Below are positions 12,067 through 56,169 of a DNA stretch of 64,000 nucleotides, in pieces. The notes below the pieces were generated by a model that saw only the letters and a program-made list of their open reading frames with translations, was not told the origin of the DNA and did not search any database. The stretch is from Gammaproteobacteria bacterium. Lineage in GTDB: Bacteria > Pseudomonadota > Gammaproteobacteria > Ga0077536. The translations under genes and the position numbers were made by a program. Each line of letters starts with the position of its first letter. Within the stretch, counting starts at the first letter, position 1. Location of the stretch: NCBI GenBank assembly GCA_016191285.1, contig JACPPA010000026.1:1-64000 (forward strand), given 5' to 3'.

Positions 12067-12185
12067 AATTTGCGCGTCTTGGTGGGGCCGCCTGTGGGAG
12101 CCGCTTTAGCGGCGAATCTTCATTGAAAGGCCCATTCGCCGCTAAAGCGGCTCCCACAACCTACTCCCACCAAGACGCGCAAATT
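12067..12185. repeat. REP pair nested in a 20-bp outer inverted repeat
   Basis: The outer arms are 12067-12086 (AATTTGCGCGTCTTGGTGGG) and its perfect reverse complement at 12166-12185. Inside are two inverted REP copies, 12092-12121 and 12133-12158. The whole 119-base segment can fold into one long stem. The other REP loci lack such arms. Confidence 0.82.
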
Positions 12186-12833: not shown

Positions 12834-12899
12834 TTGTGGGAGCCGCTTTAGCGGCGAATCTTTACTAAGGTCTATTCGCGACTAAAGTCGCTCCCACAA
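12834..12899. repeat. REP hairpin between convergent genes
   Basis: TTGTGGGAGCCGCTTTAGC faces an inverted copy whose inner arm reads GCGACTAAAGTCGC. It lies between the stop codons of the secreted protein and the CoA-transferase, 22 bases after the first and 17 before the second. Confidence 0.82.
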
Positions 12900-15760: not shown

Positions 15761-15816
15761 ATGTACCTCACTGCGTTAAGACCTCTGGAGTAACTACCCG
15801 CGCGTGCACCGTTATT

Positions 15817-15879
15817 GTGGGAGCCGCTTTAGCGGCGAAGGGACCTCAATAAAGATTCGCGGCTAAAGCCGCTCCCACA
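15817..15879. repeat. REP hairpin
   Basis: GTGGGAGCCGCTTTAGCGGC followed by an inverted copy ending GCTCCCAC. It separates the luciferase-like gene from the pyr operon, both on the minus strand; it lies downstream of the PyrK-like gene's stop codon. Confidence 0.8.
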
Positions 15880-15923
15880 TTAGCAACGCGTCCCGCGATG
15901 AAAGTTCATCGCGGGACGGCGCA

Positions 15924-22974: not shown

Positions 22975-23017
22975 CTCGCGTCTCACCAAGGACGTCGATA
23001 AATCGACGCTTGAGCTA

Positions 23018-23085
23018 TTGTGGGAGCGGATTTATTCGTGCGTGGGCCTCCCCGCCAAGATTCGCCGCTAAAGCGGCTCCCACAA
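23018..23085. repeat. REP pair after the DAHP synthase gene
   Basis: GTGGGAGCGGATTTATTCG faces a minus-strand copy ending GCCGCTAAAGCGGCTCCCAC. Part of a repeat-rich gap between convergent genes (22975-23292), which otherwise holds the items listed next and no gene. Confidence 0.78.
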
Positions 23086-23182
23086 GAGGAGCACCCGGCA
23101 CTGAGTATTGTGCTTTGGAGCAGGGCACATTCATATAGGATCCCCGCTCCCACAAGAGGAGCACCCGGCACTGAGTATTGTG
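23076..23182. repeat. 37-base direct repeat, period 70
   Basis: A 37-base segment beginning GCTCCCACAAGAGGAGCACC occurs identically at 23076-23112 and 23146-23182. Each copy runs from the end of one REP arm into the start of the next, so the pattern looks like a local duplication of REP units with partial loss of the middle unit. Confidence 0.78.
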
Positions 23183-23208
23183 GGAGCGGATTTATCCGCG
23201 AATGGGCC
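23179..23208. repeat. single REP unit
   Basis: GTGGGAGCGGATTTATCCGC on the plus strand, at the right end of the duplicated block. Its inverted partner is the truncated arm at 23146-23154. Confidence 0.65.
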
Positions 23209-23211
23209 TTC

Positions 23212-23239
23212 GCGAAGCGCATACCTGTATGCGCTTCGC
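23212..23239. repeat. perfect 12-bp hairpin
   Basis: GCGAAGCGCATA, loop CCTG, TATGCGCTTCGC. No run of T follows on the plus strand and none precedes it in a way that suits a minus-strand terminator, so a rho-independent terminator is not supported. It lies 54 bases before the thiolase stop codon. Confidence 0.65.
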
Positions 23240-53312: not shown

Positions 53313-53900
53313 GTGAAATCCGGACCACACCTTTATCTCGCTTCGCGCTCGCCACGGCGCGCCGAATTATTACGCGCGCTGGGTGTTGAATTCGCCGTCG
53401 TCGATGTCGAAGTCGACGAGATGCCGACAGCTGGTGAAGCGGCGGCGACGTATGTCGCGCGGCTGGCCGGCGCCAAGGCGAGAGCGGGCCGCGGTGCACT
53501 CATGACACCCTCTTCGGTGCTCGCCGCCGATACCACGGTGGTCATCGACGATGCGATCTTGGGCAAGCCGCGCGATGAGCTCGACGCCGCCGGCATGTTG
53601 CAACGGCTTTCGAATCGCTGGCATTCGGTTTACACCGCGGTCGCGCTGGAAAGCAGGGTGCAATCCCTGCGCGTGGTCCACACGCGCGTTAAATTCCGCA
53701 CCCTGACGCGCGCCGAAATCGCGGCGTACTGGGTCAGCGGCGAGCCTGCGGACAAAGCGGGCGCCTACGGCATTCAAGGCTTGGGCGGGGCCTTGGTCGA
53801 GCGCATCGACGGCAGCTATTCCAATGTCGTTGGACTGCCGCTGGTCGAGACTGTTGAGCTACTGAACGAGCACGGCGTGGCGCATCGACTCAATCTTTAA
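53313..53900 (+). CDS. maf: Maf family nucleoside triphosphate pyrophosphatase
   Basis: A 195-residue Maf protein. LYLASRSPRRAELLRALG is the N-terminal phosphate-binding loop and VLAADTTVVIDDAILGKPRD the active-site region; GAYGIQGLGGALVERIDGSY follows. YhdE-type enzymes hydrolyse dTTP and UTP. Starts with GTG directly after the rlmH stop. Last gene of the leuS operon. Confidence 0.93.
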   Translation: MKSGPHLYLASRSPRRAELLRALGVEFAVVDVEVDEMPTAGEAAATYVARLAGAKARAGRGALMTPSSVLAADTTVVIDDAILGKPRDELDAAGMLQRLSNRWHSVYTAVALESRVQSLRVVHTRVKFRTLTRAEIAAYWVSGEPADKAGAYGIQGLGGALVERIDGSYSNVVGLPLVETVELLNEHGVAHRLNL

Positions 53901-53936
53901 GCGCCAATTTGGAGCCCCAGCTCGTCGAACTTTCGG

Positions 53937-54066
53937 AGCAGTTGTCGGGTGTGTGCGTAGCGTCATTGTGGAGTGTGCGGCGCAGGGACGCGCCGCACGC
54001 GGAACAGCGACGAGCCGGCCAAGGATGGCCGGCGAGGAAGAGCGGAGCGCATACCCGACAACTGCT
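53937..54066. repeat. three-arm palindromic element
   Basis: Outer arms AGCAGTTGTCGGGT (53937-53950) and its perfect reverse complement (54053-54066) enclose two perfect hairpins. These are GTGCGGCGC-loop-GCGCCGCAC (53975-53998) and GCCGGCC-loop-GGCCGGC (54014-54033). The folded form is a cruciform or three-way junction. It lies between the convergent maf and hppA genes, the place where REPs occur elsewhere in the window. No coding sequence is believable here. Confidence 0.72.
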
Positions 54067-54114
54067 TTGGCCTCGATGTTATGGGTGCGAATCTCTTAGA
54101 ACCCGCCAGTTCGC

Positions 54115-54142
54115 AAAAAAAAGCCCCGCATTGCGGGGCTTC
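54115..54142 (-). terminator. rho-independent terminator of hppA
   Basis: On the minus strand GAAGCCCCGC-AAT-GCGGGGC is followed by TTTTTTTT, starting 24 bases after the hppA stop codon. A strong G/C stem with an eight-base T tract, the clearest terminator in the window. Confidence 0.92.
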
Positions 54143-54165: not shown

Positions 54166-56169
54166 TTACAGCAACGGCACGATCAGGAGCGCGACCAAGT
54201 TGATGATCTTGATCAACGGATTGACCGCCGGGCCGGCGGTGTCTTTGTACGGATCGCCCACCGTGTCGCCAGTGACTGCGGCTTTGTGCGCATCCGAACC
54301 CTTGCCGCCGAAATGCCCATCTTCGATGTATTTTTTCGCGTTATCCCACGCCCCACCGCCGGTGGTCATCGAGATCGCGACGAAAAGACCGGTTACGATC
54401 GTCCCCATCAACACCCCGCCCAAGGCCTGCGGGCCGAGGACGAGGCCAACCACCACCGGCACGAGGATCGGGAGCAAGGACGGCACAATCATTTCCCGGA
54501 TCGCGGAGCGAGTCAGCATGTCGACCGCACGCGAATAGTCGGGTTTCGCCTTGCCTTCCATGATGCCTTTGATTTCGCGGAACTGGCGCCGCACTTCATT
54601 CACCACCGCGCCGGCCGCGCGACCGACCGCCTCCATCGCCATCGCGCCGAACAGATAAGGCACCATGCCACCGATGAACAGCCCAATGATCACCATCGGC
54701 TCGGAGAGATCGAAGGTCACGGATTTGCCGGCTTCGGCTAGCTTATGCGTGTAGTCGGCGAACAAGACCAATGACGCCAAACCGGCGGAACCGATGGCGT
54801 AGCCCTTGGTGACCGCCTTGGTGGTATTGCCCACCGCGTCTAGCGGGTCCGTGATGTTGCGGATCTCCTTCGGCAGTTCGGCCATCTCGGCGATCCCGCC
54901 CGCGTTGTCGGTGATCGGGCCGTAGGCATCGAGTGCGACGATCATGCCGGTCATCGACAACATCGAAGTGGCCGCAATCGCGATCCCATAGAGGCCCGCA
55001 AAGTGATGCGCGCCATATATCGCCGCGCACACCGCGAGCACCGGCAACGCGCACGATTTCATCGAGACCCCAAGGCCGGCGATGATATTCGTGGCATGTC
55101 CAGTCTGTGACGCCGCGGCGACGTGTTGCACCGGACCGTACTCCGTGCCCGTGTAGTACTCGGTGATCCACACGATGATCCCGGTTAACGCCAATCCAAT
55201 CAGCGCGCAGTAGTAGAGCGCCATGGCGTGCTCGCCCATTAAATTGGTGGTGATGAAGTAGAACGCGCCAGCCGCCGATAGGCCCGACACGAACACGCCC
55301 TTGTACAACGCCTTCATGATTTTCTGATCGGGTGCTTTGACAAAGAAGGTCCCGATGATCGAAGCGATGATCGAAGCGCCGCCCAGCACCAGCGGGAATT
55401 GCACCGCGTTCACCCCGAACTCTTTGACCAATAAGCTGCCGAGGACCATCGTCGCGACCACGGTCACCGCGTAGGTCTCGAAGAGATCGGCGGCCATGCC
55501 GGCGCAATCGCCGACGTTGTCACCGACGTTGTCGGCGATCACCGCCGGGTTTCGCGGGTCATCTTCCGGAATTCCAGCTTCGACTTTGCCGACGAGATCC
55601 GCGCCGACGTCCGCACCCTTGGTGAAAATGCCGCCGCCCAGGCGCGCGAAGATCGAGATGAGCGAGCCACCGAACGCGAGTCCGACCAGGCCATGCAACG
55701 TTTGTTCTGGGTCCGCCCCCAGCCACTGCGGCGCCAGCAGGTAATAGCCCGTGCAGCCCAACAGCCCCAAGCCAACGACCAACATGCCGGTGACCGCGCC
55801 GCCCCGAAACGCCACGGCGAGCGCGGCGGCCATGCCGTTATGCGCGGCTTGCGCGGTGCGCACATTGGCGCGCACCGAGACATTCATCCCGATATAGCCC
55901 GTGGCCCCGGACAACAATGCCCCGATTCCAAAGCCGATGGCCGTGAATTTGCCGAGCGAGAACCACAGCGCGACGAACAAGACTGCGCCAACGATTCCGA
56001 TGGCGGTGTATTGGCGATTCAAATACGCCGACGCGCCTTGTTGGATGGCGGCGGCAATTTCCCGCATGCGGGGATTGCCTTCGGGTTGCGCCAAGATCCA
56101 GCGCACCGACCACACGCCGTAGGCGATGGCCAGAAAGCCGCACAGTACCGTAAATCCTAAAGCGGACAT
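54166..56169 (-). CDS. hppA: proton-translocating pyrophosphatase (H+-PPase)
   Basis: A 667-residue membrane pump with about 16 helices that couples pyrophosphate hydrolysis to proton export. PPi site: [20 protein letters not shown] and [10 protein letters not shown]; second acidic cluster near [10 protein letters not shown]. The segment [16 protein letters not shown] has lysine where potassium-dependent pumps have alanine, so the potassium-independent proton-pumping type is expected. Lies just downstream of pfp on the same strand, the arrangement reported for Methylococcus capsulatus. Confidence 0.95.

Follow-up and report, generated by a model that had tools for sequence, protein, structure and literature searches.

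A dispersed palindromic element downstream of maf is probably a TwoAYGGAY-like, CsrA/RsmA-binding RNA

Here we describe a palindromic element that lies between two convergent genes in the window, by which we mean the whole 64,000-nt stretch of DNA that was analysed. The gene maf runs in the same direction as the element and ends 36 nt before it, while hppA is read towards it from the opposite strand, with its end 99 nt away. The proteins around the element were named via NCBIfam, and the features of the locus are as follows.

53313..53900, plus strand: maf (nucleotide pyrophosphatase), sense to the element
53933..53956, plus strand: 5' arm of the outer stem, perfect at 53937-53950
53937..54066, plus strand: the whole core element of 130 nt, downstream of maf, its strand taken from the asymmetry of G-U and A-C pairs
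53962-53969 with 54004-54011, plus strand: small inner helix below hairpin 1
53973..54000, plus strand: hairpin 1, with the apical loop AGGGAC at 53984-53989
54014..54033, plus strand: hairpin 2, with CAAGGAUG at 54020-54027
54047..54070, plus strand: 3' arm of the outer stem, perfect at 54053-54066, predicted to pair as RNA with 53933-53956
54120..54142, minus strand: intrinsic terminator of hppA from a terminator scan, outside the element
54166..56169, minus strand: hppA (ion-translocating pyrophosphatase), convergent with the element

The arm AGCAGTTGTCGGGT (53937-53950) is the exact reverse complement of ACCCGACAACTGCT (54053-54066), and across 20 nt the arms are 90% complementary. Hairpin 1 has 11 pairs, nine of them perfect and one a wobble, and hairpin 2 has 7-8 pairs closed by the loop AAGGAU. 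The sequence-only reading of this DNA had described perfect 14-bp outer arms enclosing two hairpins at 53937-54066, and sequence and fold bear it out; what it had missed is the GGA in both apical loops, the small inner helix, and the 20 further copies in the genome. Folded as RNA, the element reaches -95.3 kcal/mol (z -10.6), which none of 200 shuffles equalled, and with DNA parameters its z is -6.6. The separate terminator that had been noticed nearby is real but serves hppA on the minus strand (54142-54120), and two more terminator-like matches on the plus strand both fall within hppA. We rejected an ordinary terminator as an account of the element, since a U-tract is absent and the adjoining terminator is that of hppA, as well as an integron attC site, which the arm sequence had suggested but whose core motifs would by eye stand in the wrong order. 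A scan for sigma-70-type consensus promoters gave no promoter-like site at the window element, and it has no terminator of its own; its expression is therefore assumed. No Rfam family reached its threshold within the window. The element does sit away from the REPs, as had been remarked: the REP-type repeats listed, of the form TTGTGGGAGC...GCGAAT, single and paired, lie between 2412 and 23214 (2412-2497, 12093-12158, 12834-12899, 15813-15882 and 23015-23214), and a 130-nt core with several helices misfits the size of the REP/RAYT system, a hairpin of about 20-40 nt with a cognate RAYT gene.

The idea of a single-copy palindrome is refuted by further copies in the home genome, that is, the genome to which the window belongs (5.1 Mb, 60 contigs). 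A DNA search of this genome gave 19 places at E <= 0.001, and R1, a covariance model made from the 14 full-length home copies, with E-values that the tool itself describes as rough, added two more, L140 (E 2.9e-5) and the weaker L151 (E 0.03). Together the 21 places hold 14 full copies, four short ones, two three-prime halves (L138 and L151, both just after stop codons) and one five-prime part (L105). The short copies, of 61-63 nt, are missing both hairpins and by eye resemble deletions between GGAGCG-type repeats. No copy was found by DNA search in five other genomes of the genus, nor by DNA search and model R1 in 35 other genomes of the family; at the order level the genomes searched were again these 36. 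The refuting condition named earlier, a single copy poorly conserved in relatives, has had a mixed outcome, given 21 copies at home, none among those 35 genomes, and structural relatives in three other families. Gene context was taken from a gene finder based simply on codon usage: in 19 of the 21 home places the upstream gene runs sense to the copy, and the co-directional places divide into six sense and none antisense. Some copies on contigs C11, C18, C31 and C49 are 7-16 kb apart and mostly co-oriented, the C49 pair being the exception. In L163, around 9771, a lone remnant of an arm, some 160 nt away from copy L125, suggests a decayed neighbour copy, and no tRNA was found near L125.

Beyond the family, R1 was run with strict filters over 369 genomes of the class and, besides the home genome, gave matches at E <= 0.05 in three others, G375, G120 and G220. 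A closer model search (E up to 1) yielded 15 matches in G375, 2 in G120, 10 in G220 and none in a further genome, G075; all 25 matches of G375 and G220 have E <= 0.009, and the second match of G120 is weak, at 0.81. The stems in these three genomes are unrelated in sequence to those of the window element, and what is shared is the plan, which in G375 and G220 is a long stem followed by two hairpins with loop GGA. The good match in G120 has a GGA loop in hairpin 2 only (CAAGGAUG), and its hairpin-1 loop is GATTAAA. At L178 of G120, on the minus strand, a lookalike of the 5' half of hairpin 1 stands about 40-50 nt on, just downstream of the element, as if it were part of a tandem copy. When searched by DNA, five more of the 369 genomes had matches, with E per genome between 6.8e-6 and 6.6e-4, and the whole fold is absent from all six stretches examined from these matches; the best of them, in G075, is a near-identical 19-base stretch without a match to R1. 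Compared with plasmids and phages by blastn, the window element drew short pieces only (E 0.03-0.1), and no viral contig matched patterns made from window-type or G220-type cores. Copies in G375 and G220 with co-directional context are sense in nine cases and antisense in four, the G375 context being partial because 7 of its 15 loci end at a contig edge; four copies outside the home genome are antisense to both neighbours, and some lie between divergent genes. Pooled over the home genome, G375 and G220 (G120 left out), orientation is sense in 15 cases against 4 (p 0.019).

The evidence favours a structured RNA in which one strand folds. Compensatory changes occur in 20 of 48 pairs among the 14 full home copies, including 14 of the 21 helix pairs of the outer stem and one of the six consensus pairs of the small inner helix. 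In these copies 94.5% of the cells are paired, compared with 88.7% when shuffled, a value as high being found in none of 500 shuffles, and sliding the pairing partners abolished the covariation values. The G220 family has compensatory changes in 10 of 47 pairs, with 98.9% of cells paired. Counted over cells, G-U stands to A-C as 46:11 in the home family and as 25:0 and 56:4 in the other two. Since the structure had originally been predicted on this strand, a recount was made with pairs predicted from both strands, and across the three families 26 pair columns contain G-U and 9 contain A-C (p 0.006; family by family 14:6, 7:0 and 5:3). This asymmetry points to a single folding strand and weakens the cruciform that had been proposed. 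Of the pair of identities offered with it, MITE or stable RNA, the structured RNA finds backing in the multiple copies, the covariation and the strand-specific wobbles, and there are signs of MITE-like spread. Stem changes private to one copy comprise 22 to G-U, 11 to A-C and 22 others that break the pair, a weak G-U excess (p 0.08), and of the home family's 34 private changes 17 come from the degraded copy L102. Given this weak signal, much of the constraint may have been exerted on source elements rather than on every copy.

GGA is present in the hairpin-1 loop of 14 of 14 home copies, 10 of 10 in G220 and 13 of 13 in G375, and in the hairpin-2 loop of 12 of 14, 10 of 10 and 13 of 13, respectively, the G375 counts covering the 13 of 15 matches that were aligned (L202 and L203 were left out). 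The hairpin-1 loop otherwise varies among home copies in both length and sequence (AGGGAC, TTAGGAC, ACGGACA, AGGATA and others), and the two home exceptions in hairpin 2 read AGAGA and TGGC. In G220, where GGA is invariant, one loop admits C, G or T as the preceding base and the other admits A, C or G. Home copies contain 4-7 GGA in total, compared with 2.7-3.9 in shuffles, and because these totals reach P<0.05 in only 4 of the 14 copies, the argument rests on the placement and conservation of the motif. Paired apical-loop A(N)GGA, the property looked for in a CsrA/RsmA-binding RNA, is present in the element. Passages of PMC4066749 give A(N)GGA as the recognition motif of CsrA/RsmA and AGAGA as a secondary CsrA motif, and place AAGGAU, the loop-2 hexamer of the window element, in the RsmZ-2 hairpin that binds RsmA.

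An outer stem around two GGA-loop hairpins is also the design of TwoAYGGAY (RF01731, clan CL00106), which passages of PMC2864571 listed in 2010 as a probable RNA of gut metagenomes, Gammaproteobacteria and Clostridiales, and for which CsrA binding was proposed in 2014 in passages of PMC4333381. The Rfam cut-off for this family, 43 bits, was passed by five of nine scanned G220 copies (43.6-55 bits; the tenth copy, L198, was left out), was reached by none of 10 scanned G375 loci and not by the G120 locus, and was missed by the window element and the 20 of 21 home places scanned. The plan of two hairpins within an outer stem is seen in the window element, G220 and G375; AYGGAY in both loops is not, the window loops being AGGGAC and AAGGAU and those of other copies having GGA with variable neighbours. 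Searching with a pattern derived from the TwoAYGGAY consensus brought up 23 viral stretches, of which 15 were scanned and seven pass the Rfam cut-off. R1, searched over 19 of the 23, finds six of these seven Rfam-called copies at E <= 1.1e-4 and the seventh, L223, only at 0.64. As the home copies are below the Rfam cut-off and R1 and TwoAYGGAY cross-match, we say that the element works in the manner of TwoAYGGAY, without assigning it to that family. The parts of the literature searched hold no multi-copy or inverted-end form of TwoAYGGAY. Within the clan the window element matches RsmY best; the score is 10.9 bits, where the threshold is 57, and the alignment spans both GGA hairpins. The RsmY, RsmZ and CsrB sRNAs resemble the element in having several A(N)GGA sites, some of them in hairpin loops, and RsmY and RsmZ are similar to it in length; however, they are free-standing genes with promoter and terminator, whereas the element is dispersed, has one closed outer stem, and shows neither at the window copy. 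By description only, it can also be likened to RsmU of Xanthomonas, an RsmA-sequestering RNA from an mRNA 3' UTR that PMC7694677 reports from one locus.

The home genome has one csrA match, an intact frame of 65 residues above the NCBIfam equivalog cut-off. About 54-69 nt before its start codon, the csrA leader contains a 16-mer, GGCGCAGGGACAGCGC; copies L092 and L101 carry the identical 16 bases at the top of their hairpin 1. Any 16-mer in common with the family was found in 2 of 3,699 control windows, and the isolated short family matches in this control survey lie at or near known copies. The leader (L154, minus strand) has a GGA hairpin and more GGAs by the start codon, which would be fitting for autoregulation. 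There are two csrA-type genes in G220, of which one is a weak match (36 bits against a cut-off of 27), and a single one in G120; by eye their leaders show no such identity with hairpin 1. In G375, which has 15 element matches, csrA was not found in a genome that is 85% complete, and this weakens the CsrA reading.

The ends of the copies bear on how they came to be dispersed. Judged by eye, all 7 copies of G375 subfamily B with usable 5' flank start near CTAGATAGCTG, and all 8 with 3' flank finish near its complement, with divergence in L195 and L201. Several G220 copies have ends close to CTGTCCCGTTAAC and its complement, also by eye. Among the 14 home copies, a similar end, CTAAATAAGCGCTCG, scores above shuffles at P<0.05 on one or both sides in nine and on both in five, where chance would give about 1.4 of 28 sides; five of the seven 3'-side matches are 13-17 nt beyond the core and the others at 0 and 9. 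The window copy has an end of this type on neither side, and the end consensus TAAATAAGCGCTCG, with one mismatch, occurs 6 times in the home genome compared with 12 for the reversed control. Home cores are 82% identical, with flanks of 45-50 nt at 51-52% compared with 49-50% when shuffled; the G220 core stands at 87% against 58-61% in its flanks, and six G375-B copies at 88% against 73-82%. If taken as a gradient of ages, this would lead from young copies with good ends to old ones that have lost their ends and kept their core. Copies at home of which the ends were never a part would also look so, and the partial home ends argue against that alternative. The sequence-only reading had also thought of target duplications; ends of the form C-TA...TA-G in several copies fit a TA duplication by eye and would be in keeping with IS630-type insertion. 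The spread of the element seems to have been that of a small mobile element with inverted repeats, of which it formed the interior and whose ends later decayed.

The activity of the global regulator CsrA/RsmA is normally restrained by a dedicated sponge RNA, or by a few of them. We read the element as a dispersed CsrA/RsmA-binding RNA, similar to TwoAYGGAY and spread in the fashion of a MITE, and put the probability of this reading at roughly two in three. The module would be transcribed within neighbouring mRNAs, here downstream of maf; its long stem would present the two A(N)GGA loops, and, judging from the motif and the family, one homodimeric CsrA could clamp the pair. About twenty scattered copies might then titrate CsrA as a distributed sponge, make their host mRNAs responsive to CsrA, or both. 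The reading is favoured by the conservation of GGA, the link with TwoAYGGAY and the hairpin identity in the csrA leader; against it we count the home copies that fall below the TwoAYGGAY cut-off, the four short copies without hairpins, and an orientation that is not strict.

The readings that must be set against it differ in what they make of the stem and the loops. A selfish palindrome of MITE type that plays no part as RNA, whose transposase recognises DNA hairpins and whose structure reflects constraint in active sources, would account for the terminal inverted repeats of G375 subfamily B, the matching ends on at least one side in nine home copies, the multi-copy and lineage-restricted distribution, and the want of a csrA match in G375; the folded top strand of single-stranded DNA would, moreover, tolerate G-T too. 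ERIC, Correia, RUP and other bacterial MITEs are intergenic palindromes of about 100-200 nt with many copies, inverted ends and no transposase, but they are not known for paired CsrA-type hairpins, and here the interior outlasts the ends. A core better kept than the ends is the opposite of what a mobile element needs, the GGA of the loops persists while the base before it varies, and neither the likeness to a predicted CsrA-binding RNA family nor the hairpin in common with the csrA leader is to be expected of such a palindrome, which we therefore consider unlikely though worth keeping in mind.

The very stable stem could instead act as a 3'-UTR stabiliser or attenuator in the manner of ERIC or BIME, blocking exonucleases or ribosomes while the loops are incidental, and the predominantly sense position of the home copies behind their upstream genes would suit that role. 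It leaves unexplained why GGA should occupy two loops across three families with unrelated stems, and elsewhere copies are antisense or between divergent genes as well, which makes this explanation improbable. Least credible of all is that the copies are sRNA genes in their own right, of the RsmY/RsmZ type: RsmY is indeed the best clan match and aligns over both GGA hairpins, but its score is far below threshold, the window copy lacks both a promoter-like site and its own terminator, and 21 copies far exceed any known RsmX/Y/Z set.

The preferred reading of a dispersed CsrA/RsmA-binding RNA admits a bolder form, which we put forward tentatively and think somewhat doubtful: a mobile CsrA sponge, that is, a MITE with a paired CsrA-binding interior, each insertion of which would add a titrating site to another mRNA, so that the interior would be selected after the ends decay. 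Such a sponge would have originated in, or made its way into, several bacterial families as well as viral contigs. If true, repeats that scatter paired CsrA sites through mRNAs would amount to a distributed setting of CsrA activity, and mobile DNA would have a route by which to rewire a post-transcriptional network. The family of elements also gives the TwoAYGGAY-CsrA prediction of 2014 a large, covarying set of natural variants. Judged from titles and abstracts, the literature searched holds no recognisable report of repeat- or MITE-borne CsrA sites; PMC4679880 considers CsrA unlikely to recognise the TAACTGA repeats that it describes.

Five of the viral TwoAYGGAY RNAs above the cut-off (L207 452-571, L208 2832-2951, L212 9253-9372, L219 2821-2940 and L229 4591-4710) have a C4 antisense RNA about 0.6-0.8 kb away, and are possibly CsrA sponges borne by phages or satellites. 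A TwoAYGGAY-like stretch with 81% identity to the viral-contig form over 97 of its 120 bases is found on the Pseudomonas antarctica plasmid pP27494_1 (L230 3001-3096), where no feature is listed and the surrounding region has type III secretion genes. A partial match, 84% over 64 bases, occurs in Pseudomonas phage SC_10_H1H2H8_2017 (L231 2501-2564), flanked by a gene for a tail protein and a convergent one for a transposase.
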